In this document: positions 171-11,978 of the stretch, piece by piece
Layout: every line of letters begins with the position of its first letter
How positions within the stretch are numbered: the stretch's first letter is position 1
Assembly (NCBI GenBank): GCA_947177885.1
Contig: CAMWWF010000051.1
Location: 1-12,351, forward strand
From: an uncultured Lachnospiraceae bacterium
Lineage (GTDB): Bacteria; Bacillota_A; Clostridia; Lachnospirales; Lachnospiraceae
DNA length: 12,351 nt
Reading direction: 5' to 3'
The notes under the pieces: model-generated
Told to the model about the DNA's origin: nothing
The model's input: only the letters and a program-made list of their open reading frames with translations
Databases searched by the model: none
Translations under genes and position numbers: made by a program

Positions 171-1058
171 GTGGAATCTGGCACCTCAGCAAACAGCAAA
201 ATGGGAAAAAGCAAAACATATTCTTACGATTATGACGAGTACGAAAGCGGTAAAAATGCAGGGACCATGGCGGAGGATATTCTGGCGGATCCGGAATTCT
301 CTGATCTGGAGGAGCTTATTATCGGCGGATGGGGAGGCGAATATGAGGACGATTGTCAGCCGATCCTGGATGCCATCGCCGATAATCCCGACCGATTCAG
401 CCATATCACCAAGTTGTTTGTAGGCGATATGGATTTCGAGGTATGTGAGGTTTCCTGGATCATGCAGGGAAATTACAGCCGTATCTGGAAGGCTATGCCT
501 CAGTTGAAGGAGCTGACCATAAAGGGCAGTATGGAATTGACACTGGGGGAGATCGAGCATGAAAATCTGGAGTCATTGACCATTATCTGCGGTGGTCTGG
601 GAGCGGATGTGATAAAGGAGATTACGAAAGCGAAGCTGCCCAACCTGAAAAAGTTACTTCTCTATATCGGTGTTGAAGATTATGGCTTTGACGGCAATGC
701 GGATACTGTCAGGGAGATGCTTGCCGATTCTGATTATCCCGGACTTACCTATCTTGGAATCGTGGACAGTGAGATCCAAGACGAACTGACAGAGGTGGTA
801 CTGGAGAGTAAGTACATCCGCCAGATTGAGACTCTGGATCTGTCCTGCGGCACACTGACAGACAAAGGCGCCAACCTGTTGTTGGAGAAGCTGCCGGAGC
901 TTTCCAATATCAGGAAGCTGGATGTACATCATCATTATCTGTCAAATGAAATGATGGAAAAGTTGGGAAAGCTGTCCCTTGATGTTGACATGTCCGAGCA
1001 GGAAAAACCAGATGAATGGGACGGGAAATTATGGTACAACGCGATGCTGACGGAGTAA
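171..1058 (+). CDS. STM4015 family leucine-rich-repeat-like protein
   Basis: This 295-residue protein matches what I know of the STM4015 family: a cytosolic protein of irregular leucine-rich repeats with no known catalytic activity. The start is GTG at 171, supported by AAGGAGG nine bases upstream. After about 35 polar residues come repeating strand-loop units such as LEELIIGG, ITKLFVGD, LKELTIKG, LESLTIICGG, LKKLLLYIG, LTYLGIVDSEI and IETLDLSCGTLTDKGA, ending in LDVHHHYLS. The acidic stretch and tail (DMSEQ...EWDGKLWYNAMLTE) resembles the conserved family C-terminus, so the protein looks complete. There is no signal peptide or membrane segment. It is the first gene after the promoter and its end overlaps the ATP-grasp gene, which suggests coupled translation. 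A scaffold or substrate-binding role for the cluster's enzymes is inference only. Confidence 0.85.
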   Translation: MESGTSANSKMGKSKTYSYDYDEYESGKNAGTMAEDILADPEFSDLEELIIGGWGGEYEDDCQPILDAIADNPDRFSHITKLFVGDMDFEVCEVSWIMQGNYSRIWKAMPQLKELTIKGSMELTLGEIEHENLESLTIICGGLGADVIKEITKAKLPNLKKLLLYIGVEDYGFDGNADTVREMLADSDYPGLTYLGIVDSEIQDELTEVVLESKYIRQIETLDLSCGTLTDKGANLLLEKLPELSNIRKLDVHHHYLSNEMMEKLGKLSLDVDMSEQEKPDEWDGKLWYNAMLTE

Positions 1059-2299
1059 GAGGGATCATCCTGATCGGTTCGGAGGGAAGAGAAAGCCGGG
1101 CAGGTGATGAAGCCCCGGAGGGAAGAACCGTTCAGGCAGGCAATAAAGATCCGGAGGGAAGAGAAAGCCGGGCAGGTGATGAAGTTTCGAAGGAAAGAAC
1201 CGGCAGGGAAAGAGATATGGTCCCGGAAGAAAGAAACCATTCGGAACGCGGCGGAAGAGCGGAAGGCCGCAAAAGCTTCGAGGGCAGCAAAAGAAGATTT
1301 TATTTTGAGAGGGCTGCCGCTGAAGCCGGTATCAGCATCTCTTACTATGACTGGAAGGACTTCCCGTTTCCGGAAGGATTGCCCAATATCGGAAACAGCA
1401 TTGTGAAGATAGATGCACCGGAATGGAAGAGCAGCCGGCTGAAAGATCTGGATGAGCTTACAGGCAGGTACAGGGAGCAGCTGCGCCTGCTCTCCCGGAT
1501 GCCTTTCGGAGCGTTCTTTAATCATCCCGGCGATATCGCGGAAGTACTCGACAAGCGGAAGTGCAAGAAAAGGCTTGCCGAAAACGGTGTTGCTGTGACG
1601 GAGATGTATGGGGAAAAATTTTCCGGCAGAGAAGAGCTCCTTGACTTTATGAGGGAAAACAGGATTTACCAGATTTTTTTAAAACCCCTGAGAGGATCGG
1701 GAGCGGCAGGGGTGACGGCGCTTCGGTTTTCCCCGGTAAAGGGGAAAGTTGTCCTTTACACCTGTGCGGCGCTCCTCCAGGGTGAGCTTGTCAACACAAA
1801 AAGGCTGTACAGGCTTGAGGATGAGGATGCGGCGGCGCTTTTGGATCCGCTTCTGGAATTAGACTGTGTGGTGGAAAAGTGGCACAGGAAGGCTGCATTT
1901 CAGGAGTATTGCTATGATCTCCGTGTCATAGTGCAGGACGGGCAGGTGGATTATATTTTGCCCCGACTGTCCAGGGGGCCAATCACCAATCTGCATCTGA
2001 ACAACCATTCCATGGAGTTTGAAAGATTAAATCTGGACGGGACTGTAACCGATAGTATTATGGAACTCTGTATTCGGGCAGCAGGGTGTTATCCCGGATT
2101 AAAGAGTATCGGGATGGATGTGCTTTTGGAGAAGGAGAGCAGGAAGCCCTATATTATTGAGATGAATGCCCAGGGAGATCTTCTTCACAGGGATGTCTAT
2201 CATGAAAACAATATTTACAAGCGGCAGATAGAGATCATGCGGAATATGTATATCCGGAGTGATTCCGCAGAATCTTTTTGTTTTGGCAAGACGTTTTGA
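1031..2299 (+). CDS. STM4014 family ATP-grasp protein with a repeat insertion
   Basis: A predicted ATP-grasp enzyme of 422 residues. Such enzymes activate a carboxylate with ATP and join it to an amine or thiol; the substrate is unknown. Visible motifs are the lysine and glycine-rich loop FLKPLRGSGAAG (K218), YDLRV (295-299), GMDVLL (361-366) and the metal-binding IIEMNAQGD (E377, N379). The N-terminal strand GIILIGSEG (11-19) should lead straight into RRFYFERAAAEAG (88-100), but about 68 charged residues, largely 12-residue repeats, lie between them. The start is uncertain. ATG 1031 has GGGA four bases upstream and overlaps the previous gene by 28 bases; ATG 1016 in the same frame adds five residues and has AGGA twelve bases upstream. 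The core fold looks intact, so I expect a working enzyme. Radical SAM and sulfatase-like partners follow downstream. Confidence 0.85.
   Translation: MVQRDADGVRGIILIGSEGRESRAGDEAPEGRTVQAGNKDPEGRESRAGDEVSKERTGRERDMVPEERNHSERGGRAEGRKSFEGSKRRFYFERAAAEAGISISYYDWKDFPFPEGLPNIGNSIVKIDAPEWKSSRLKDLDELTGRYREQLRLLSRMPFGAFFNHPGDIAEVLDKRKCKKRLAENGVAVTEMYGEKFSGREELLDFMRENRIYQIFLKPLRGSGAAGVTALRFSPVKGKVVLYTCAALLQGELVNTKRLYRLEDEDAAALLDPLLELDCVVEKWHRKAAFQEYCYDLRVIVQDGQVDYILPRLSRGPITNLHLNNHSMEFERLNLDGTVTDSIMELCIRAAGCYPGLKSIGMDVLLEKESRKPYIIEMNAQGDLLHRDVYHENNIYKRQIEIMRNMYIRSDSAESFCFGKTF
1080..1259 (+). repeat. 36-base tandem repeat array within the STM4014 gene
   Basis: Five 36-base units begin at 1080, 1116, 1152, 1188 and 1224. 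The first 33 bases of units 1 and 3 (1080-1112 and 1152-1184) are identical, beginning CGGAGGGAAGAGAAAGCCGG. Unit 2 keeps the first dozen bases, and units 4 and 5 are progressively more diverged. Each unit is 12 codons long and encodes variants of EGRESRAGDEAP, so copy number can change without breaking the frame. The array sits in a loop between the first strand and first helix of the pre-ATP-grasp domain. Confidence 0.85.
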
Positions 2300-2628
2300 A
2301 CGAATACAATGAGGGCGGTACGGAGGCGCGGTGATCAGTACAGGATGCCTGTATGGCACCGTTTATGTATCCTGCCTGTTTGCTCTGAAAAGCGTAAGCT
2401 GCATTAGAGCGTGTTTAAAAATACTTTTTCCGGGGCGTGCGCCACACATTGCGGGATACAAGACCCATTTGAGAGACGAAGTGGGGCATTGCACGCCAAA
2501 TGGGGGCACAGCAGGCCGCGAAGTGTGGCGTGCGGACTGGGTATGATTTTCGAACATGTTTTAAGGATATTGGCGTTGATTGTGTTTGAAGATTTGATTC
2601 GGCAGATTTTTAGAAGGAGTGATGGAAA
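2300..2628. other. 329-base gap between the STM4014 and STM4013 genes
   Basis: No convincing gene lies here. Short open frames lack ribosome binding sites and overlap each other on both strands. The 2300-2402 part shows nothing recognisable. The 2410-2558 part is the nested inverted repeat listed separately. The last 70 bases hold the AGGAG ribosome binding site (2614-2618) of the next gene. Other pairs in this cluster overlap, so the gap is probably an insertion or a boundary between transcripts. Confidence 0.6.
2410..2558. repeat. Nested inverted-repeat (foldback/MITE-like) element
   Basis: Three nested inverted repeats share one centre. The outer arms are CGTGTTTAAAAAT (2410-2422) and ATTTTCGAACATG (2546-2558), matching 10 of 13. 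The middle arms are CGCCACACATTGCG (2440-2453) and CGCGAAGTGTGGCG (2517-2530), matching 12 of 14. The inner arms are CCCATTTG (2464-2471) and CAAATGGG (2497-2504), a perfect 8. The layout suits a miniature foldback transposable element or a long RNA hairpin; it encodes no protein. I did not see a clear target-site duplication. A family name cannot be given without a database search. Confidence 0.5.
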
Positions 2629-3486
2629 ATGACAGGTGAAGTACCGTTTGCGGCATTCCGGTCCGGCATGGATCAGAAGAAATGCTCGGTTGATATGACG
2701 CAGGTTGTGGGGAACTGTGATATTTTGTTTGTGTGCCTTGACACATTGAGATACGATGCTGCCATAGAGGAAGAGAGAAGCGGCGGCACTCCCGTTTTGA
2801 ACAGGTATGGCGCTTGGGAGAAGCGGCAGGCCCCGGGGAACTTTACATATCCTTCTCACCACGCCATTTTTTCAGGCTTTCTCCCTGCGAAGGAGGAGGC
2901 GAAAAATATCGCGGAACAGGAGATGCTTTTCTTTCCCAAAAGCATGGGAATGGGCAATAAGGTTCCCGAAGGCGCCTATGGCTTTGACAGCAGCAATCTG
3001 GTGCAGGGACTTCATAACGACGGCTATGATACATGGTGTGTGGGCGGTGTGGCCTTTTTTGACAAGCGCACGGATATGGGTAAGGTATTTCCTTCTTTTT
3101 TTGAAAAGAGTTACTGGAACCCGTCCTTTGCCTGTCCGGTAAAGGACAGTACGAAAAACCAGGTGGATTTTATCATAAGCAGGCTGGACAAAAAGGAGGA
3201 TGATCGGAAGATATTCCTTTATTTGAATGTCTGCTCCATTCATTATCCCAATTATTTCTATCTGGAAAACGAAAAGAATGACAGCCTGGAAACTCATCGG
3301 GCGGCACTGCGGTATACGGACGGTGAGCTGGGCAGGCTTTTTGAGCATTGGAAGAGCAGGAGGGGCGAAACCTTTGTGGTATGCTTTTCCGATCACGGAA
3401 CCTGTTACAGTGAGGACGGATATGTCTTCCATGGCGTGAATCATCCAATGGTCAATACGGTGCCGTATAAGCATTTTTTTCTTTAG
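2629..3486 (+). CDS. STM4013 family sulfatase-like hydrolase (alkaline phosphatase superfamily)
   Basis: A cytosolic 285-residue hydrolase of the alkaline-phosphatase/sulfatase fold, matching the STM4013/SEN3800 family. The start at 2629 has AGGAG ten bases upstream. Metal and nucleophile motifs are in order: CLDTLRYD (D38), NFTYPSHHA (likely nucleophile T73), CSIHYPNY (H205), FSDHGTCYSEDG (D255, H256) and HGVNHPMV (H272), ending in TVPYKHFF as expected for the family. There is no C/S-x-P-x-R formylglycine motif, so it is more likely a phosphatase, phosphodiesterase or transferase than a classical sulfatase. No signal peptide is present, so it acts inside the cell. Length is normal and the protein looks complete. 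It is separated from both neighbours by about 310-330 bases although its partners are always the same families, so it may be transcribed with them through the gaps. Its substrate is unknown. Confidence 0.88.
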   Translation: MTGEVPFAAFRSGMDQKKCSVDMTQVVGNCDILFVCLDTLRYDAAIEEERSGGTPVLNRYGAWEKRQAPGNFTYPSHHAIFSGFLPAKEEAKNIAEQEMLFFPKSMGMGNKVPEGAYGFDSSNLVQGLHNDGYDTWCVGGVAFFDKRTDMGKVFPSFFEKSYWNPSFACPVKDSTKNQVDFIISRLDKKEDDRKIFLYLNVCSIHYPNYFYLENEKNDSLETHRAALRYTDGELGRLFEHWKSRRGETFVVCFSDHGTCYSEDGYVFHGVNHPMVNTVPYKHFFL

Positions 3487-3671
3487 TATCTGTAAATGAT
3501 TCCGCTTCTGACCGGATTGGATAACCGATTCCGTCAGGCAATTGGACTGGGGAAATTTCCGCCCGTGCGGTCGGACGCTTCAAAGGAGCCTCCAAGCTGA
3601 CTCCCACATTCGCAAAATTTGTGCTTACGCGCTATTGCGTCTGCCTGCACATCCGCATTTTGATCATTTTG

Positions 3672-3700
3672 AGGTGGGTTGCTGATCCAACAGCCCGCCT
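3672..3700 (+). other. 10-bp RNA hairpin between STM4013 and STM4012
   Basis: AGGTGGGTTG (3672-3681) can pair with CAGCCCGCCT (3691-3700) over ten base pairs, two of them G-U, around a nine-base loop. No T-run follows (GTATGGCAATG), so it is not a normal intrinsic terminator. A role in RNA processing or stability is possible. Confidence 0.4.
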
Positions 3701-3712
3701 GTATGGCAATGA

Positions 3713-3741
3713 TTGCATGGGGCAGACCATTGGATTACAAT
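3713..3741 (+). promoter_or_regulatory. Weak candidate promoter before the STM4012 gene
   Basis: TACAAT at 3736-3741 is a good -10 box. A poor -35 box, TTGCAT (3713-3718), lies 17 bases upstream. Transcription would begin near 3748, about 50 bases before the start codon at 3797. The weak -35 makes this tentative. Confidence 0.25.
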
Positions 3742-3796
3742 CGCACAGGTGCCGATATTTTTAGATTCCGAAATGGATACCGATATAGGGGCAGGT

Positions 3797-5119
3797 ATGA
3801 ACAGATATATTCAATATATGTACAGCTATCCGCACAAGACGGCTTACAGGGCGTTAGAGAATGTCAATTTAAGAGACTACTTTCATAATCTGGAGGGTGA
3901 AGGACACAGTTTATATCTTCACCTTCCCTTTTGTGAAAGCAAATGCGGTTACTGTAATCTGTTTTCGGTTACAGGCTGCAGCCGGATTCAGACGGAGGAT
4001 TATATTGCTGCGGTATCGCGCCAGATAAGTCAATATCGGGAAATGATGCCCCAAGGCACATCCTTTGGTGATCTTACCGTCGGCGGCGGTACGCCTTTGC
4101 TGTTGGAAAGCAGGCAGATAGTGCGTATTTTCGAAGCTGTGAAAAAGAATCTGCCAATCGGTGACGATTGCAGGATCATCATAGAAACGGCTCCCAACCA
4201 GACCGATAAAGAGAAAGCGGAGCTGCTGAAAGAGCTTGGGGTGACACGGGTCAGTATGGGGATCCAGAGCTTTGACAACCGGGAACTTCGATGGCTGGGA
4301 AGAAGCCATGACCGGGAACGTGCCATGGAAGCCGCGGAACTTCTGGCAGATACAGGGTTTGAATGTGTCAATTTTGACTTTATTTACGGATTGCCTGATC
4401 AGACGGCGGAAAGCCTGGAGCACTCTTTGAGGACGGCGCTTTCCTTTTCACCGGACGAAATATTTCTTTATCCGCTCTATATAAAGCATGGCGTCAGACT
4501 GGAGCGGGAAGGAAGAGGAGAGCTGTTGGATTCCGATCACATGTATGCTTTGTATCAGTGCGGCTCGGCATATTTGCGGGATAAGGGATATGAACAGATC
4601 TCCATGAGACGTTTTCTGAAAAAGGGGAATAGGAGGACGATTTCATCAGACGATCTGCTCCCGGAATTCAGCGAGTGCGGATTAAAGAGCGCGCTGTCCC
4701 TGGGCTGCGGCGGAAGAAGCTACCTGGGGAGGCTCCATACCTGTACACCCTACCGGACAACAAGAAATGCCGCGATGGAGGAAATTGCGCGCTATCAGCA
4801 GACGGAGGATTTCTCTTCTGTGTCAAACGGGATACTGCTTTCGGATGAGGAACTTAGGAGGCGATATGTGATAAAGCATTTACTGATCCTTCCCGGAATA
4901 TCCAGGCAGGCGTATCAAAAGGCTTTTCAGGCAGACGTTTTAGAAGATTTCCCCATCCTGAAAGATTGGATCAGGCAGGGATGGGTGGAAGAGCGCTGCT
5001 GCTGTGACCATATCGGCCTGACTACAGAAGGATTAGGCCTTTCCGACTATATAGGTCCCCAGCTGATCTCAGAGGATATCAGGGGGAAAATGCTGGAATG
5101 GGAGAGGGCAAATGCATAA
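3797..5119 (+). CDS. STM4012 family radical SAM protein (HemN/HemW-like)
   Basis: A 440-residue radical SAM protein related to HemN/HemW. The 4Fe-4S cluster that cleaves S-adenosylmethionine binds C46, C50 and C53 in PFCESKCGYCNLFS (CX3CX2C). The SAM-binding GGGTP motif follows (TVGGGTPLLLE), then ETAPNQTDKEK, RVSMGIQSFDNREL and NFDFIYGLPDQT, all typical of this branch. A HemN-type winged-helix C-terminus is visible (YVIKHLLILPGISRQAYQK to LTTEGLGLSDY). I chose ATG 3797 because AGGGG lies five bases upstream and the protein then opens with YMYSYPHKTAYRAL, as family members do. Family similarity to HemW does not prove a haem role; within this cluster it more likely modifies an unknown substrate. 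The end overlaps the next gene by eight bases (ATGCATAA), which implies translational coupling and probably joint function with the second radical SAM enzyme. Confidence 0.9.
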   Translation: MNRYIQYMYSYPHKTAYRALENVNLRDYFHNLEGEGHSLYLHLPFCESKCGYCNLFSVTGCSRIQTEDYIAAVSRQISQYREMMPQGTSFGDLTVGGGTPLLLESRQIVRIFEAVKKNLPIGDDCRIIIETAPNQTDKEKAELLKELGVTRVSMGIQSFDNRELRWLGRSHDRERAMEAAELLADTGFECVNFDFIYGLPDQTAESLEHSLRTALSFSPDEIFLYPLYIKHGVRLEREGRGELLDSDHMYALYQCGSAYLRDKGYEQISMRRFLKKGNRRTISSDDLLPEFSECGLKSALSLGCGGRSYLGRLHTCTPYRTTRNAAMEEIARYQQTEDFSSVSNGILLSDEELRRRYVIKHLLILPGISRQAYQKAFQADVLEDFPILKDWIRQGWVEERCCCDHIGLTTEGLGLSDYIGPQLISEDIRGKMLEWERANA

Positions 5120-6995
5120 GAGGACGATCCTTTACAGGGGAAATCTGAAAAGCTGTAATTACAGCTGCTCCTACTGTCCCTTTGCAAAGCATAGGGCATT
5201 GGCGTCGGAGATGGAGAGAGACCGGCAGAATTTTGCATGGTTCTGTGACAGTATTGTGAAAAGGGCACAGGATTTTTCCATCGGGGCGGTTTTCGTTACG
5301 CCATACGGCGAAGCCTCCATACACCGTTGGTACTGGGAGGGTCTTTCGCGTCTGGCAGAGCTTCCGGAGATTGACAGAGTGGGATTGCAGACGAATCTCA
5401 GCTTTTCTGTGGAAGAGTGTCTGAACGTGTTTGATTCTTTCGGGAGAGAGTATCAGGAAGAAGATTCTTTTGCAGATACTCATCGGAAGATCGATTCGCC
5501 TGTAAAGGAGCGTTCAGAGACGGATCATGAAAGGACTGGTTTGGTAGAGGCTGATCATGAAGGGACTGGCTCGAAGGAGGCTGATCATGAAAGGACTGGT
5601 TCGGTAGAGGCTGATCTTGGAGGGATTGACCCGGAAAGAGCTGATCATGAGAAGGAGATTTTTCTCCGGGAGAAATTGTCTAAGGGGGAGCTTCTGAAAG
5701 AGAAAAGAGCAAAACTTTCTGTCTGGGCGACCTTTCATCCCGAGATGACAACGGTGGATGCGTTTGTCTCCAAATGCCACAGCCTGATCGAAAACAATAT
5801 TCTGGTATGTGCCGGGGCAGTGGGAGCCCCTGATAATATACAGATATTACGGGAATTGAGGGAAAAGCTTTCCCCGGCAGTATATTTATGGATCAATAGA
5901 ATGGATGGTCTGAAAAGGAATTACAGTCCGGAGGAAACGGAAGCCTTTGTGCAGATCGATCCCTTTTTTGAATATGAACTCAGGAATCCGGAGGCTGCCG
6001 TACATATGTGCACGGACCGGTGCTTTGTGGAGGCCGACGGGAGAATACACACCTGTAATATAAGCAGGACAAAAGCAGCGAACTGGTACGATGGCGGTGA
6101 GGAAGAAATATTTGAACCTGTGTGCAGCAGAAAGAGATGCAGCTGTTACCTTGCCTATGGCGGAAGAGCTGATTTTGCGCCGAAAAATGTGTTTGGAGAA
6201 TATCCCGTTTTCAGAGTTCCCCGAAAGTTCAGGGCGGTCTTTTTTGATCTGGACGGAACATTGATCCCGGCGTGCAGGAAAGCGGGGGGCACAAGCAAGG
6301 AACCGTATGGAGGAGCCATTGAACCCGGTATTGGACGCAGCGGGCCTGGCAATCCGGGCGGGACACCGGATGTCATATGTAAAAGATCAGATATCCTATG
6401 TACGGGATTCGGAATGTCCGCCGGGAACCGGCGCGGATCAGAACTGTCGGATGAGGTTCGCGGAAGGCTGACTGCATTAAGGGAAGTATGCCCGGTTTTT
6501 CTTGCCACATCCATGCCGGAGTCAGCTGTGAAGAGAAGATTAAGGGGCGATATGGATCTGTTTCAGGGATTTATCTTTGCATCAGGCGGATATCTGCGTC
6601 TGAAAGAAAAAGAGAGATGCAGGGAAAAGGTTTATCCCATAGATGTCAGCGGTCTGTCGGAAGTGATAAGAACCGGAGAGAGTATAAAGGCGAAATGCGT
6701 GGTCTCTGCCAAAAACGGAGCGGCATATAAGATAACCTTTGTGAAAAGCCGCCACAATATTTGGAAGGCTGCGGAGTGCGGCAGGATCGCGGAGCTTCTG
6801 AAAAAGTCGGACTGCCGCTTCTTTACCGAAGGGAACTGCCTGGAAATCGTAAGGAAAGGGCGGGACAAGGGAACCGGTATTGCGGAAATATGCGGCTGGA
6901 TCGGAATCCCCGCAGAAGATGTCCTGGCCGTGGGCAATGATAGGGAAGACGCCGCCATGGAGAGGGTCTGCGGGGGATATATAAATGTGGGATAA
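5112..6995 (+). CDS. STM4011 family radical SAM protein fused to a Cof-type HAD hydrolase
   Basis: A 627-residue two-domain protein. Residues 1-355 are an STM4011-type radical SAM enzyme: C15, C19 and C22 (SCNYSCSYCPF) hold the SAM cluster, TPYGEASIHRWYW (63-75) is a family signature, and C300, C304, C315, C338, C343 and C345 form a SPASM-like set likely to bind auxiliary iron-sulphur clusters. Residues 372-627 are a HAD phosphatase of the Cof (C2-cap) type with FFDLDGT (D379, D381), LATSMP (T466/S467), K586 in RDKGTG and VGNDREDAAM (D610, D613). It stops soon after motif IV (INVG), slightly short for this family. Low-complexity segments interrupt both domains, at about 111-200 (10-residue repeats) and 388-444 (Gly/Pro/Ser-rich). 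The start overlaps the previous stop, with GGAGAGGG just upstream. The fusion suggests that a phosphorylated substrate or product is handled along with the radical reaction; the substrate is unknown. Confidence 0.88.
   Translation: MHKRTILYRGNLKSCNYSCSYCPFAKHRALASEMERDRQNFAWFCDSIVKRAQDFSIGAVFVTPYGEASIHRWYWEGLSRLAELPEIDRVGLQTNLSFSVEECLNVFDSFGREYQEEDSFADTHRKIDSPVKERSETDHERTGLVEADHEGTGSKEADHERTGSVEADLGGIDPERADHEKEIFLREKLSKGELLKEKRAKLSVWATFHPEMTTVDAFVSKCHSLIENNILVCAGAVGAPDNIQILRELREKLSPAVYLWINRMDGLKRNYSPEETEAFVQIDPFFEYELRNPEAAVHMCTDRCFVEADGRIHTCNISRTKAANWYDGGEEEIFEPVCSRKRCSCYLAYGGRADFAPKNVFGEYPVFRVPRKFRAVFFDLDGTLIPACRKAGGTSKEPYGGAIEPGIGRSGPGNPGGTPDVICKRSDILCTGFGMSAGNRRGSELSDEVRGRLTALREVCPVFLATSMPESAVKRRLRGDMDLFQGFIFASGGYLRLKEKERCREKVYPIDVSGLSEVIRTGESIKAKCVVSAKNGAAYKITFVKSRHNIWKAAECGRIAELLKKSDCRFFTEGNCLEIVRKGRDKGTGIAEICGWIGIPAEDVLAVGNDREDAAMERVCGGYINVG
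5517..5666 (+). repeat. 30-base tandem repeat array within the STM4011 gene
   Basis: Units of 30 bases begin at 5517, 5547, 5577, 5607 and 5637. The core GCTGATCATGAA recurs with small changes. Each unit is ten codons and encodes variants of EADHERTGSV; the fourth (EADLGGIDPE) is the most diverged and the fifth is partial. The array lies in an inserted linker between TNLSFSVEECLNVFDSF and LSVWATFHPE, which normally follow each other closely in the family. Confidence 0.85.
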
Positions 6996-7113: not shown

Positions 7114-8157
7114 TTAACCGCAGTTTGTCCGCATGCATTTTGCCAGGAATCGGTATCTTTTTTCCGGATAAGATCCGCAGATCCGGGCGATTTCCCGTGC
7201 CACGGATCCTGCTGTGGCATATGCGTCATATGAGGCGTCACATAATCTGTGAAATTCTATCACCGGTGTGTCTGTCAGGTCGCTTATTTCCCTGTAGGCA
7301 TCCAGGCATTGATTCCACAATTGCCGGGAACAGTCATCGGTGTCATCTCTGTCGGAATGAGCGGCGGGAGTGAGCAATACAGGATAGGCCAGACGTTCCC
7401 TGCACTCAATGATATAACGGGCCAATTGGCGTCTGCAGCTTCCGCCGGGTGCCCAGTCTTCTGCCGTCTGCCCCCCGGGAGCAAATTGGAGAAAGTAAAA
7501 ATCGCCCGGCCTGCCGTATTCATGGATCGCAGCATAGTATCCTGCTTTCCGAAAGGATTCCATGGTAAGTCCTGAACGGGAACAGTCGGATACGGCAATC
7601 CTCTGATCCGTATATGCGTTCAGCATTTGCTCCCACCTGGCAGGGGAGCTTTTTTCTGTATGAAAAGAGGAGTGCGTGGTGGGCTGACCGGCTCCGGGAG
7701 TGGAACCCGTTGTGATCCTGCTGTCTGCTGCTGTCGTGATCCCGTTGGCCGGTTCTGACACAGCGCCACTGTCTGCTGCTGTGCTGCTGTCGGCGGATCC
7801 GGCTATGTAAATGGTCGGACAGGATATTTCGCTGACGGACAGGCTGCTGAGACAGTCCGTTTCCGCTGTTACGGTAACGGTTATCTCCCTGTTCTGACAC
7901 ACACGGTTACAGCCTTCAGGTACGCTGTTTCCCACATGCACCACGGTGACATGCCTGAAGACTCCGGCAGGCACACTTCCTGTGAATATAAGGCTTCCGG
8001 AGCCCGTGCAGACGGATACTCTTTCCAGAGGGCGTTCTGCTGTGAGAACCATTGTGAGCTTATATTTGCCCGGACGGGGAACTTCTATCGTAAAGGATCT
8101 TCCCGCCGTATAGCAGCTGCCGGGATACCGGTGAAACAGAAAATTATGACGATACAT
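7114..8157 (-). CDS. Degenerate SGNH hydrolase-like protein (rhamnogalacturonan acetylesterase type)
   Basis: A 347-residue protein with no signal peptide. The N-terminal part is beta-rich (SFTIEVPRPGKYKLTMVL, ITVTVTAET), followed by an SGNH-like domain recognisable from PTIYIAG (114-120), RWEQMLNAYTD, AVSDCSRSGLTMESFR, GDFYFLQF, YIIECRERLAYPVLLTP, DTPVIEFH and AGSVAREI. In active relatives block I reads AGDST; here it is AGSADSST, followed by about 45 Ser/Thr/Ala/Gly-rich residues. The GHND block is replaced by APGG (226-229), and the late DxTH...GA catalytic histidine region is shortened to CDASYDAYATAG, so esterase activity is doubtful. The start at 8157 is set by GGAGG six bases upstream; the frame stays open upstream to 8346, but that part overlaps the binding-protein gene. 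It is the last gene of the sugar-transport operon, so a sugar-deacetylating ancestor is plausible. Confidence 0.7.
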   Translation of the reverse strand: MYRHNFLFHRYPGSCYTAGRSFTIEVPRPGKYKLTMVLTAERPLERVSVCTGSGSLIFTGSVPAGVFRHVTVVHVGNSVPEGCNRVCQNREITVTVTAETDCLSSLSVSEISCPTIYIAGSADSSTAADSGAVSEPANGITTAADSRITTGSTPGAGQPTTHSSFHTEKSSPARWEQMLNAYTDQRIAVSDCSRSGLTMESFRKAGYYAAIHEYGRPGDFYFLQFAPGGQTAEDWAPGGSCRRQLARYIIECRERLAYPVLLTPAAHSDRDDTDDCSRQLWNQCLDAYREISDLTDTPVIEFHRLCDASYDAYATAGSVAREIARICGSYPEKRYRFLAKCMRTNCG

Positions 8158-8173
8158 ATCGTGCCTCCAAAAT

Positions 8174-8202
8174 TGCCTCCCAATTACGGGAATTGGGAGG
8201 CA
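8174..8202 (-). terminator. Hairpin with a short U-run between the binding protein and SGNH genes
   Basis: On the minus strand, TGCCTCCCAATT and AATTGGGAGGCA form a perfect 12-bp stem with a five-base loop (CCCGT), followed by ATTTT. This resembles a weak intrinsic terminator 32 bases after the binding-protein stop. The right arm carries GGAGGCA, and the same seven bases recur five bases later as the SGNH ribosome binding site, so the left arm could pair with either copy. It may reduce or switch expression of the last gene. Confidence 0.6.
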
Positions 8203-8233
8203 TACGCTCATTCTCGGAAGATAGTATACTGTG

Positions 8234-9970
8234 TTACTGCAGCTTTGTGGTGTAGCCGTTTTCATAGGCTTCGCGTCTCTCGTCGATGACCTGCTGATAA
8301 CCCGCTTCCAGGTATTTGGCACTGAGCTCTTCATACAGTGCGTCAAACTGATCGGGAGGGCATGTCACAAGCTGGTCTCTGTACTCGGCATACAGTTCGC
8401 ATAAGGTTTGCTGAAGCTCGGAAGAGGACTTGATTATCACTGCGAATTTACAGTCGGAATTCGCATATCCTGCATTATAGACCTCAAGCTGACCGTTGTA
8501 GTTGTCGATAATGGCCTGCGTATAGTCCACAGGAAGTCCGGCAGGCGCTACAGCGGCCATATCCGCTTCCATGCTGCCGAGGCTCCTTGACTCGACCGTC
8601 ACACACCAGTAGTCCTTGCTGTTGCTGAAGCCCTGTGTATATTCGGGATCTGCTTCCGTCAGGGATACGGGATTACCGTCTTCGCCATACTCAAAGTTCT
8701 TACCCTCAACGCCCCACTGCATGGTGAACAGCACATCTTTCTGCGTCATCCACTCCATGTACATCATAGCGGCTTTGATTTCATCCTCGGTTGCCTGGGA
8801 AGAGAAACCGATCATCATGCCGAAGGGATCCCAGGGACGGAAGGTATTTACGGAGCCGTACTTTTCGTCGATCACCAGTCCGGGTGTTCCCTGGATACCG
8901 ATCTTTCCGTCAGGATTCTGCTCGTAGAATGCGGTCAGGAAGTCAACGTTGGCGGAGGTATAGCCCCAGAGCTGGAAAGAATTACCGCTGACGAAATCTG
9001 CCTTGTTGGTCTCCGTGTCGCGAACGTAATATTCAGGGTTGAGGAAGCCCAGATTATACTTCTCATTTTCTCTCTGCAGGTACTTTCTGTTAGCCTCGCT
9101 GCTCAGAGCGGGGATCTGATAGTCGCCGTACATTACCCATTCCAGCTCGTCCTGGGGATAGGTCCTGAAAGAATAATTCTGATCGGAACCTACACCGTTG
9201 ATCATTTCGCCCCCCAGAGGATGTTCGCAGTACCCCTCGTCGATCAGCTTCTGATAGATTTCTTTCTGCTCATCCCAGGTTGCGGGCCACTCTTTATAGC
9301 CCAGTTCCTCCAGCCAGTCCTGGCGGTACCAGGTGAGGGAGGTATAGGTAGAGTTAAAATAAGGTCTTTCTGCCAATACGAAATAACGGGATCCGTTCAG
9401 TTCGGTGTACTTGAGCTGATCCAGTTCCACCATTCTCTCATAATAGGTGGGTGCGATCTGTGCAAACTGGTCCAGGTCATACTCGACCAGATATCCTTTG
9501 TCACCCCACTCGGCAAGCTTGTCAAAATCGTACTCCATCAGGATCGTGGGAAGCTCGCCCACGGTAGCCAGCATATTGTAGCTGGTAAGTACGTCGGTAC
9601 GGGTGATGGGCTCGAATGTAACGGTAATGTTGTAGGGATCACCGAAATTTTCCTGAATCCATTTGGTCCAGTAATTGTTGGTCACATCCGGAACGCCTGC
9701 GGCGCCTCTGTCATATACAGGGATTGTCAGAGTCACGTTCTCGGCAAAGGCTTCCCAGCCTTCCACACCGGCAGGCGCATTTTCTCCGCCTGCTGCGCTG
9801 CCGGTATCACTGCCTGCAGAGGCGGGATCGGAAGCGGCATCGGAAGAGTCTGTTGTGGATCCTGCGTTGTTTGTTTCAGCCGCGTTATCACCGCAGCCGG
9901 TCAAAGAGCCCGTCACCATAATGGCTGTGAGAGCAGCGGCAAGCAGCCTTTGAAGATACTTCTTCTTCAT
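8234..9970 (-). CDS. Extracellular solute-binding lipoprotein of a sugar ABC transporter
   Basis: A 578-residue family 1 solute-binding protein, similar in type to LplA, which captures an oligosaccharide outside the cell and delivers it to the two permeases encoded upstream. I chose ATG 9970 (MKKKYLQRLLAAALTAIM...) because GGAGG lies eight bases upstream and it opens a proper lipoprotein signal peptide; an in-frame start at 10009 would add 13 unsupported residues. The lipobox LTGC places the lipidated cysteine at residue 26, followed by a roughly 40-residue Ser/Ala/Gly/Asp-rich tether. Mature motifs include VTLTIPVYDRG, GELPTILMEYDFDKLAEWGDKGYL and LTWYRQDWLEELGYKEWPATWDE, typical of the family. 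Its length suits the large LplA-like subgroup. The 107-base spacer before it has a poor TTAACA/AATTTT pair only, so it is probably read from the operon promoter. The sugar cannot be identified. Confidence 0.93.
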   Translation of the reverse strand: MKKKYLQRLLAAALTAIMVTGSLTGCGDNAAETNNAGSTTDSSDAASDPASAGSDTGSAAGGENAPAGVEGWEAFAENVTLTIPVYDRGAAGVPDVTNNYWTKWIQENFGDPYNITVTFEPITRTDVLTSYNMLATVGELPTILMEYDFDKLAEWGDKGYLVEYDLDQFAQIAPTYYERMVELDQLKYTELNGSRYFVLAERPYFNSTYTSLTWYRQDWLEELGYKEWPATWDEQKEIYQKLIDEGYCEHPLGGEMINGVGSDQNYSFRTYPQDELEWVMYGDYQIPALSSEANRKYLQRENEKYNLGFLNPEYYVRDTETNKADFVSGNSFQLWGYTSANVDFLTAFYEQNPDGKIGIQGTPGLVIDEKYGSVNTFRPWDPFGMMIGFSSQATEDEIKAAMMYMEWMTQKDVLFTMQWGVEGKNFEYGEDGNPVSLTEADPEYTQGFSNSKDYWCVTVESRSLGSMEADMAAVAPAGLPVDYTQAIIDNYNGQLEVYNAGYANSDCKFAVIIKSSSELQQTLCELYAEYRDQLVTCPPDQFDALYEELSAKYLEAGYQQVIDERREAYENGYTTKLQ

Positions 9971-10077
9971 AAATCTTTCCTCCATTCTGAAATTTGCTTT
10001 ATAATCCACCTGGAAATACAGGAGATTACCGTACCTTAAAATTGTTTCTGCTTATAATTGTGTTAATGCGAAAATAC

Positions 10078-11007
10078 TCAGCCTTTCACCGCTCCGGCCA
10101 TGGCACTCTTTACGAAATACTTCTGTACGAAGGGGTAAATACAGATGATGGGCAGAGTGACAAACATAATGAATGCCGCCTGTAACACCTCCGGTGTGCT
10201 GGTTACGGCAGCAGCTTCGGACAGAGTGACACTCTGAGCCTCCGAAGCGGAGGACACCATCTGGTAAAGCTTGTATTGTGCCATTTTCAGGTTCTCGGAT
10301 TTTATGTAATACATATTGTCTGCATAGGCATTCCAGCGTCCCACCGCATAAAACAGTGACAAGGTGGCAATGATGGGCTTGGACAGCGGTATGACGATCT
10401 TGAAGAGGATCTGGAAATTACTGGCGCCATCCAGAAACGCAGACTCTTCCAGACTGTCCGGTATGCTGGACTGGAAGAAGGTCTTCATGATGAGCATGTT
10501 GTAGGGAGAGTAGATCAGAGGCCAGATCAGCACCCACATGGTGTCATACAGTTTCAGGTTGTACATCAGCACAAAGGAGGGAATGATACCGGCGGAAAAG
10601 TACATGGGGATCATTAGGAGAAAAGTGATCCCCGTCTTTCCTTTCAGCCTCTTTTTTGAGAGGGGATATGCGGCGCAGGTACACACCAACATTCCCAGAA
10701 CGGTAAAAATCAGGGTGACCAGTACACTGTAACCCATGGACCACACCAGAGAGCCGTCGCGGAAGATGGAGCCGTAAGCCTCGAAATTGATTCCCTTTGG
10801 CAGGAAATAGACCTGTTTAGCCAGCACATAACTGTTGCCGGATATGGATTTGACTGCCACATGCAGAAAAGGAAGAATACATGTAGCACATAAAACGGTA
10901 ATGAACAGCATCATCAGTGCGTCGCTGATTCGGAATTTATTGACTGCGCGGCTGCCGTCGGAGCTTACCTGCCCGTCTCGGCCCGCTGTATTCGTATTCT
11001 TTGCCAT
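10078..11007 (-). CDS. Carbohydrate ABC transporter permease, YtcP/MalG-like
   Basis: A 309-residue inner-membrane permease, the second of a pair forming the channel for sugar uptake. Six hydrophobic segments are visible at roughly 29-52, 91-114, 126-150, 154-175, 206-224 and 275-295. The cytoplasmic EAA loop that docks on the ATPase is clear at 187-211 (EESAFLDGASNFQILFKIVI). The first 25 residues are polar and longer than needed. The start at 11007 is preceded by an unusual run of seven G (11014-11020 on the minus strand) that overlaps the stop codon of the preceding permease gene, so the two are tightly coupled with a 12-base gap. No ATPase gene is present; relatives usually share a general MsmX-type ATPase encoded elsewhere. 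Length and motifs are normal. Confidence 0.93.
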   Translation of the reverse strand: MAKNTNTAGRDGQVSSDGSRAVNKFRISDALMMLFITVLCATCILPFLHVAVKSISGNSYVLAKQVYFLPKGINFEAYGSIFRDGSLVWSMGYSVLVTLIFTVLGMLVCTCAAYPLSKKRLKGKTGITFLLMIPMYFSAGIIPSFVLMYNLKLYDTMWVLIWPLIYSPYNMLIMKTFFQSSIPDSLEESAFLDGASNFQILFKIVIPLSKPIIATLSLFYAVGRWNAYADNMYYIKSENLKMAQYKLYQMVSSASEAQSVTLSEAAAVTSTPEVLQAAFIMFVTLPIICIYPFVQKYFVKSAMAGAVKG

Positions 11008-11019
11008 ATGCTTCCCCCC

Positions 11020-11964
11020 CTATAGTAAGCCGTCTTCGCCAAGCATCTTTGCGATCCTGTCTGAGAGAAGTACCAGGATCACACCCACCAGGGACTGGAA
11101 CAGGTTCACGGCGGTGGACATGCTGTATTTGCCGCTCTGCAGACCTTTGTTATAGATATACACCGCAAGCTGGTACTGAAAATCCTTGACCTGTGTGTTG
11201 GCAAATACGGTCAGACGCTCCAGATTGCTGCCCATAACGCGTCCCAGGTTCATGATGAGCAATGTGACGATGGTGCCCTTGATGCCCGGCAGCGTGATGT
11301 GCCACATCCGTTTCCAGCGGTTTGCACCGTCGATCATTGCCGCTTCATATAATTCGCCGTTGATGCCGGTGATGGCTGCCAGATAGATGATGGTGCCCCA
11401 GCCCATGCCCTGCCAGACGCCGATCAGCAGATAGGTCACGGCCCAGTGCCATTTCTCTGTCAGGAACGGGATTCCCTGCTCTATGATGCCGGCATTCATC
11501 AGAGCCATATTTACCAGACCGGATGTGGGGCGGAACATGGTATAAGCGACGCTTCCGATGATTGCCCAGGACAGGAAATGGGGCAGATACAGGATCGTCT
11601 GTGTCACCTTTTTAAAGCGGGGATAACGGAGTTCGTTTAAAATCAGTGCCAAAAGGATGGGCATGGGGAATCCCACAAGGAGATCCATCAGATTGAACGC
11701 GATGGAACTTTTCAGGGCACGGATAAAATCCGCATCCTTGAAGATCTTCCGGAAGGTTTCCAGTCCTACCCATTCGCTGCCGGAATATCCCTTTACGGGA
11801 TTGTAGTCCATGAATACCATTCGCAGTCCCGGATATGCAGCGTAATTGAAGATGGCCACCATTGCGATGGGAAACAGGAGAAGCAGATATAATTGCCAGT
11901 CCCGTTTAAAAGCATTTTTCCATGTGGTCTGCGCGACAACCGGGGGTTTTTTGTTTTTTGCCAT
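11020..11964 (-). CDS. Carbohydrate ABC transporter permease, LplB/MalF-like
   Basis: A 314-residue inner-membrane permease that pairs with the downstream YtcP-like protein. Hydrophobic segments lie at about 24-45, 84-112, 122-145, 172-200, 230-242 and 286-301. The EAA loop is at 206-230 (YEAAMIDGANRWKRMWHITL). The phrase YNPVKGYSGSEWVGLETFRKIF is typical of LplB-like proteins. The start is ATG 11964, with GGAGG five bases upstream; an ATG at 11976 in frame overlaps that ribosome binding site and is unlikely. A 71-base spacer holding a strong bulged hairpin separates it from the small gene upstream. It is the first transporter gene of the operon and likely shares the promoter at 12262-12290. 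Nothing suggests damage. Confidence 0.93.
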   Translation of the reverse strand: MAKNKKPPVVAQTTWKNAFKRDWQLYLLLLFPIAMVAIFNYAAYPGLRMVFMDYNPVKGYSGSEWVGLETFRKIFKDADFIRALKSSIAFNLMDLLVGFPMPILLALILNELRYPRFKKVTQTILYLPHFLSWAIIGSVAYTMFRPTSGLVNMALMNAGIIEQGIPFLTEKWHWAVTYLLIGVWQGMGWGTIIYLAAITGINGELYEAAMIDGANRWKRMWHITLPGIKGTIVTLLIMNLGRVMGSNLERLTVFANTQVKDFQYQLAVYIYNKGLQSGKYSMSTAVNLFQSLVGVILVLLSDRIAKMLGEDGLL

Positions 11965-11978
11965 ATTTTCCTCCATTC

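Follow-up and report, generated by a model that had tools for sequence, protein, structure and literature searches.

The window analyzed here is a stretch of 12,351 bases from an uncultured Lachnospiraceae bacterium (contig CAMWWF010000051.1), which carries on its plus strand the genes STM4015, STM4014, STM4013, STM4012 and STM4011 in this order. A sequence-only reading of this DNA had already named the five families, and it was confirmed when the nine window proteins were scanned against Pfam and NCBIfam: all five NCBIfam families (NF038073-NF038076 and NF006067) were found above their curated cut-offs in adjacent genes. We consider a pathway organized around a leucine-rich repeat (LRR) carrier protein, STM4015, a reading which as a whole we regard as about as probable as its contrary. 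The features of the locus, including the open reading frames (ORFs) next to it and repeats detected with Tandem Repeats Finder (TRF), are:

171..1058, plus strand: STM4015, LRR protein, proposed carrier (NF038076, 326.8 bits against a cut-off of 275)
1016..2299, plus strand: STM4014, ATP-grasp ligase, proposed loading enzyme (NF038074, 287.1 against 175)
2629..3486, plus strand: STM4013, alkaline-phosphatase-superfamily hydrolase with Thr in the nucleophile position (NF038075, 373.3 against 250)
3797..5119, plus strand: STM4012, HemN-like radical S-adenosylmethionine (SAM) enzyme (NF006067, 478.5 against 380)
5112..6223, plus strand: STM4011, radical SAM domain with five further invariant Cys (NF038073, 291.4 against 200)
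6224..6995, plus strand: HAD-IIB phosphatase domain fused to the STM4011 C-terminus (PF08282; border approximate)
1032..1055, plus strand: codons of the conserved STM4015 C-terminal tail WYNAMLTE; the last codon, GAG at 1053-1055, encodes the proposed attachment Glu
1080..1217, plus strand: array of 36-bp tandem repeats, in frame, in or beside a low-confidence insert of STM4014 (TRF)
5516..5656, plus strand: array of 30-bp tandem repeats, in frame, inside the radical SAM domain of STM4011 (TRF)
7114-8346, minus strand: unassigned ORF downstream of the cluster
8234-10009, minus strand: ORF resembling a solute-binding protein, without family match

The genes overlap at two places, STM4015 with STM4014 and STM4012 with STM4011, and the fused STM4011-HAD gene spans 5112-6995. 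STM4015 starts with GTG at 171 behind a AAGGAGGT-like ribosome site, its first Met lying at 201. The ORF of STM4012 is open from 3713; the family model starts at ORF residue 31 and close relatives in the alignment begin at a Met matching position 3797.

No Pfam LRR model matches STM4015, and its LRR nature, as the sequence-only reading had it, is deduced from the predicted fold. The AlphaFold2 (AF2) model has a mean predicted local distance difference test (pLDDT) score of 93.8, and its fold matches in the PDB are headed by 2RA8, followed by many LRR proteins. 2RA8 is a structural genomics entry of Bacteroides fragilis Q64V53, a protein called uncharacterised in its record. It shares 43% identity with STM4015 in the fold alignment and is matched by sequence with an E value of 6.1e-65; this sequence match ends at residue 272, short of the tail. 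For residues 281-285 the mean pLDDT drops to 61, as expected of a free tail.

The very end of this tail is conserved. In an alignment of 29 STM4015 sequences (A1) from Bacillota, Bacteroidota, Pseudomonadota, Deinococcota, Actinomycetota and one cyanobacterium, the terminal position (E285) is one of 15 invariant columns and ranks 14th of 278 by weighted relative entropy. Between 38 and 50 residues are left after alignment column 300, so the conserved end follows a stretch of variable length. This stretch is mostly acidic, with the sum of D and E minus K and R at positions -23 to -9 averaging 5.3 (minimum -1). The 40 STM4015 ORFs of the fetched loci (numbered L below) yielded 38 distinct tails, and Glu is terminal in every one of them, within the pattern [L/V/I/F/Y]-[T/S/G/A]-Glu. 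Position -2 is occupied by T (20), S (7), G (7) or A (4) and position -3 by L (20), V (14), I (2), Y (1) or F (1). Counted with fragments included, 15 kinds of last residue occur in STM4014 (n = 29) and 11 kinds each in STM4013 (n = 31) and STM4012 (n = 33). Terminal E was also present in 150 of the 152 database STM4015 proteins listed (of 1,637 and 2,777 found), which are close relatives of the window protein and not independent of each other. The two deviating entries, P0044 and P0067, appear truncated or chimeric. The source of P0067 marks the protein as partial, and its foreign-looking end is possibly an adapter or assembly artefact. The tail is kept in tandem pairs of STM4015 (L017, L019, L022 and L030) as well as in further copies (L026, L027, L028 and L090), and such duplication would be easier to explain for a carrier or substrate than for a structural subunit. 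The conserved tail noted in the sequence-only reading was thus found again throughout the distinct tails, and judged from these alignments the C-terminus of STM4015 is the best candidate for a substrate site.

A PDB profile search with STM4014 returned LysX and RimK as top matches, and ArgX/LysX/RimK came first in both fold rankings of its AF2 model. In the fold searches the Z gaps to other ATP-grasp ligases are small, and the graspetide ligases PsnB and MdnB are found among the matches. ArgX and LysX couple an amine to the Glu that ends a carrier protein (LysW), and RimK lengthens the C-terminal end of ribosomal protein S6. The model contains an insert at residues 27-85 with pLDDT below 50. 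Of 23 sequences, 22 have a loop of the form GS[GSA]A[ASG]G and one has GAGAAG; judged by the GS aligned in the profile search, this loop probably occupies the position of the GSWGR motif. When loop types were compared by eye with classes of STM4015 tails, the association tracked phylogeny with exceptions, and we do not claim a link. In Embleya NBC_00888 (L029, 6475-8769) STM4014 and STM4013 share an open frame with a low-complexity linker, possibly a natural fusion.

In the 25 aligned STM4012 sequences, three of which stem from outside the clusters, Y40 and H42 (Y-x-H) as well as C46, C50 and C53 (C-x3-C-x2-C) are invariant. The nearest PDB entries are HemN (1olt, 1.1e-61), aligned over most of the length, and NocN (9p2u, 7.3e-38), aligned over the core, with Elp3 entries far behind. 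A heme enzyme was considered and rejected, as the HemN and HemW models scored under their cut-offs (164.9 versus 325 and 176.9 versus 205.4) and the protein's own family over it.

STM4011 combines a C-x3-C-x2-C motif with five further Cys (300, 315, 338, 343 and 345) invariant in 24 sequences (alignment A6). The sequence-only reading had called these cysteines SPASM-like. No SPASM model of Pfam or NCBIfam matched STM4011 in our scans, which makes this cautious wording the correct one and an outright 'SPASM' an overstatement. Of the SPASM pattern, the first half agrees with C300-x9-G310-x4-C315 and the second half does not agree with C338-x4-C343-x-C345. STM4011 likely carries an auxiliary iron-sulfur cluster. 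The only PDB match at E values up to 0.01 is SkfB (6efn, E 4.4e-4), a radical SAM peptide maturase, and it is restricted to the C-terminal Cys region (profile 198-260). Radical SAM enzymes act on Tyr in the precursors of mycofactocin or pyrroloquinoline quinone; the same chemistry on the tail Tyr of STM4015 was rejected, this residue being out of register across the tails.

The HAD domain that the sequence-only reading had placed at STM4011 was recovered as PF08282, its DxDGT motif kept in alignment A6. Fusion to STM4011 is seen in the window and in L002, L004-L008, L011-L014 and L021, to which the alignment adds L078 and L079. Bacteroides and loci of Lachnospiraceae type other than the window are represented among them. 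In Salmonella the HAD protein is encoded by a separate, next gene, and Deinococcus taeanensis (L017) has a weak match nearby. At an E value of 1e-4 it was not found in L001, L003, L009, L010 or the Paenibacillus, Methylobacterium and actinobacterial loci. HAD may be seen as a separable sixth component of the cluster.

STM4013 is matched by the Pfam models PF00884 and PF01663, and D38, T73, D255, H256 and H268 are invariant in 23 sequences. Its best PDB matches are sulfatases and nucleotide pyrophosphatases/phosphodiesterases (NPPs). In low-scoring N-terminal alignments T73 coincides with the catalytic Thr of NPPs and the catalytic Cys of choline sulfatase. The Pfam Sulfatase model and an arylsulfatase are the best matches, yet a type I sulfatase was rejected because Thr replaces the Cys/Ser nucleophile. 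In Streptomyces albidoflavus (L084, 5950-9399) an STM4013 gene over cut-off lies beside genes for a MoaA-like radical SAM protein, a thymidylate kinase and a Nudix hydrolase.

We then consider how these genes are distributed. For the phylum an even draw of 249 genomes was used, centered on the Acetatifactor muris genome behind L010 (G009), itself included. All five families were over cut-off in the identical 6 of the 249 genomes (G009, G035, G079, G118, G164 and G245), which shows that the linkage is not due to chance; the genes are spread over three contigs in G245 and lie next to each other in the other five genomes. With relatives below cut-off included, at E 1e-3 STM4015 was found in 7 genomes in total, STM4013 in 9, STM4011 in 25 and STM4014 in 58, and STM4012 relatives at E 1e-60 in 103 of 249, as expected for large superfamilies. 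None of 14 control genomes exceeded the cut-off for any family. Most of 14 loci found with the window STM4012 were labelled Lachnospiraceae or Acetatifactor, and STM4015 was over cut-off in all 13 genomes searched from this first locus scan, genomes that had been picked by their STM4012. Salmonella, Paenibacillus, Deinococcus, Methylobacterium and Streptomyces carry the cluster too, and its gene order is the same in several phyla. Among the 12 cluster loci read from a plasmid collection (L015-L022, L026 and L028-L030), 11 hold all five families, the exception being L021 of Bacteroides finegoldii; the assignment per ORF lacks STM4014 in L029, where this gene shares one open frame with STM4013. 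The 13 records of this collection matching STM4011 all fall within the 14 matching STM4015, the fourteenth being Calothrix. The five families form one unit; the sequence-only reading had proposed a gene-neighborhood check across genomes.

This unit is not exclusive. Families lying mostly apart, which the sequence-only reading would have counted against itself, were not what the phylum sample showed; elsewhere STM4012 and STM4013 also occur apart. STM4012 is over cut-off without the other four families in one Streptomyces, and STM4013 stands apart from the cluster in S. albidoflavus and Kitasatospora. The Rhizobium STM4012 is likewise over cut-off, and that of Cupriavidus is known by its record name. 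In these two, on plasmids (L023, 8944-11261 and L024, 8902-11237), the STM4012 family gene is paired with a class I methyltransferase gene, possibly a separate two-gene pathway. Bacteroides finegoldii (L021, 12841-15781) has STM4015, STM4014, the first part of STM4013 as a fragment and STM4011-HAD, and no STM4012, which is either a deletion or a minimal version. No near match to the Salmonella STM4014-STM4011 stretch was detected by megablast, which does not search distant matches, in 5,426 Escherichia coli genomes. The Salmonella locus itself (L015, NZ_CP019203.1 15506-40210) comes from a record labelled plasmid, in which typA, glnA-glnL-glnG and hemN lie beside the cluster; these are presumably chromosomal genes, and the record is perhaps a mislabelled or excised piece of chromosome. 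Two further readings of the cluster were set aside. As viral cargo it found no backing: viral contigs searched with the STM4012 protein, at a sensitivity limited to close relatives, gave no match. As anti-phage defence it was backed in PADLOC by no more than one partial match, between STM4012 and PDC-M51A (E 9.4e-7).

The cluster is adjoined by a DUF6745 gene and a gene for a partner of about 100 residues in 7 of the 12 loci from the plasmid collection:

L017, 14774-16071: DUF6745 gene and partner
L018, 14881-16202: DUF6745 gene and partner
L019, 15731-17040: DUF6745 gene and partner
L020, 8395-9720: DUF6745 gene and partner
L022, 8066-9530: DUF6745 gene and partner
L026, 2785-4407: DUF6745 gene and partner
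L030, 11104-12620: DUF6745 gene and partner

The six partners read carry the motifs GHSH or GHAH and HEEH or HDEH. In the seven DUF6745 proteins the C-terminus reads Y-x-P-x-x-E-T/A, with QT as the final residues of one, giving the type Y-x-P-x-x-[E/Q]-[T/A]. By eye the N-terminal part of the Deinococcus and Methylobacterium proteins looks rich in leucine repeats, with no Pfam LRR match. In Deinococcus ficus (L085, 7030-10263) the pair stands apart from STM4015 within the fetched stretch and beside a VWA-domain gene, and another VWA gene is situated close to the cluster of D. taeanensis (L017, 6064-8082). Judged by this proximity, DUF6745 appears to be a partner of the cluster in other lineages; it was not mentioned in the literature searched.

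Taken together, gene linkage, an anchored tail and the enzyme classes are supported by these data. On the proposed LRR carrier pathway, the C-terminal Glu of STM4015, held on a flexible tail, would be the attachment point. STM4014, as an ArgX/LysX/RimK-type ligase, would activate the Glu carboxylate with ATP and join to it the amino group of a small substrate; two lines of evidence, the anchored Glu and the kinship of the ligase, are the reason for placing this loading step. The LRR body might serve as the docking surface for STM4012 and STM4011, and the HemN-like STM4012 together with STM4011 would rearrange or functionalise the tethered substrate, radical steps that are suggested by the enzyme class. 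STM4013, of the Thr-nucleophile phosphodiesterase/phosphatase type, and the HAD phosphatase could remove or transfer phosphate groups. The proposed order would be loading of the terminal Glu, radical modification of the amine, phosphate steps and release; covalent loading, this order, the role of the phosphatases and release are what we infer. The more specific view, that STM4015 represents a new class of LRR carrier with a Glu handle loaded by a LysX/RimK-like ligase and served by two radical SAM enzymes and phosphohydrolases in the making of a metabolite in bacteria ranging from Clostridia to Salmonella and Streptomyces, with the linked DUF6745 perhaps as a second carrier, we hold tentatively, at somewhat less than an even chance. 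The sequence-only reading had supposed that the families build or modify one product, that ATP-grasp and radical SAM enzymes recall peptide-modifying pathways and that the LRR C-terminus may be the substrate. The single unit, the nearest solved relatives (ArgX/LysX/RimK, SkfB, HemN and NocN) and the conserved tail partly support this.

Other explanations account for part of these observations. STM4014 might act like RimK, extending STM4015 at its end by glutamate or a different amino acid, and this regulatory mark would tune the binding of STM4015; the radical SAM substrate would be separate and presented by the LRR protein. We think this unlikely, as it leaves unexplained why the same 6 of 249 genomes that hold ligase and LRR protein also hold both radical SAM enzymes and a phosphohydrolase. 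The cluster could also resemble those for ribosomally synthesized and post-translationally modified peptides, with the LRR body as a giant leader and the tail as a core that undergoes radical SAM modification and ATP-grasp crosslinking or extension, comparable to graspetides and sactipeptides. SkfB as the only PDB relative of STM4011 within the E value limit and PsnB and MdnB among the fold matches of STM4014 point this way. The last Glu is, however, the sole invariant residue of the tail, Tyr does not keep its register, and position -2 is taken by G or A in 11 of the 38 tails and so offers no constant hydroxyl partner; we judge such a pathway rather improbable.

The tail could instead be a short recognition motif that holds the enzymes together, with STM4014 forming a small soluble compound in the manner of D-Ala-D-Ala ligase, GshB and DcsG. 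Against this, ligases for protein C-termini rank first by sequence profile and in both fold rankings, and a docking motif would not need to sit at the free C-terminus in every member, which makes docking alone a quite improbable account. That the genes have unrelated jobs and are merely co-inherited as a selfish operon is very improbable: relatives of STM4012 and STM4013 do occur in unrelated contexts, but the same order across several phyla, the gene overlaps, the STM4011-HAD fusion and the frame shared by STM4014 and STM4013 in Embleya speak against it.

The remainder of the window was not counted as part of the cluster. On the minus strand, convergent with it, 7114-11976 holds the unassigned ORF, the solute-binding-like ORF and two sugar-type ABC permeases. 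The two tandem arrays put low-complexity stretches into STM4014 and the radical SAM domain of STM4011, and blastn found no match to either in the fetched relative loci. The spacers 2300-2628 (329 bp) and 3487-3796 (310 bp) share a 19-nt repeat (84%) and had no match in the fetched loci. In scans of 150 family genomes the spacers were matched in 2 and 0 genomes, an empty answer that without a positive shows nothing. Part of spacer 3487-3796 has counterparts at two places in one of the 150 genomes (72-75%) and in a 34-bp stretch of another. Both spacers may be small dispersed elements. No tRNA was found in the window, and no Rfam family at gathering score.

The literature searched, with most subscription papers outside its scope and an earlier mention of the neighborhood possible, assigns no function to STM4011-STM4015, in accordance with the sequence-only reading, which knew of no reaction. 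Tables in the literature name STM4015 or STM4013, and the NCBIfam family names seen assign no reaction; the main text searched of ATP-grasp surveys contains no LRR term. A 2009 review of amidoligase gene neighborhoods is likely relevant. What is added here is a likely type of reaction, amine ligation to the terminal Glu, as suggested by the sequence comparisons. For five orphan families named only by Salmonella locus tags this would supply a single testable mechanism, in which the last Glu of STM4015 is the decisive residue. If true, an LRR-based type joins the known carrier-protein systems, and the cluster points to an undescribed metabolite of gut Clostridia, Salmonella, Paenibacillus, Deinococcus and Streptomyces.

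Among known systems, HemN and NocN differ in that STM4012 forms its own family and its neighbors are not heme or nocathiacin genes. The graspetide ligases PsnB and MdnB share the ATP-grasp fold and act on genetically encoded peptides. In contrast to graspetides, no small precursor gene was noted in our analysis, which included no search for small precursor ORFs, ring-forming residue pairs are not evident in the STM4015 tail and the candidate acceptor has 285-295 residues. RimK and RpsF resemble the cluster in the ligase fold of STM4014 and in a protein C-terminus as acceptor; here, however, the linked acceptor candidate is an LRR protein, STM4015, and biosynthetic partners are present.

The closest parallel is found in the LysW/ArgW systems, whose ligases LysX and ArgX share the fold of STM4014 and are nearest to it in sequence. 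In LysX-type ligases GSWGR recognises EDWGE; STM4014 lacks the former and STM4015 the latter. STM4015, a protein of 285-295 residues, differs as an LRR protein from the small zinc protein LysW, and alignment A1 contains no invariant or nearly invariant Cys. No homologues of LysZ, LysY, LysJ or LysK were found among the nine window proteins in the Pfam and NCBIfam scans; the partners encoded there are radical SAM and phosphohydrolase enzymes. LysW ends in W-G-E (PMC10433800). The end of STM4015 also consists of a hydrophobic residue, a small residue and, as the final residue of the protein, Glu. Secondary metabolism is one field in which amino-group carrier proteins are known (PMC8346489). The cluster itself adds a new member to a set of families already known yet uncharacterised, and its carrier mechanism would be a variant of the amino-group carriers. 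By analogy, it is best read as a cluster that may work like a LysW system yet is no member of it.

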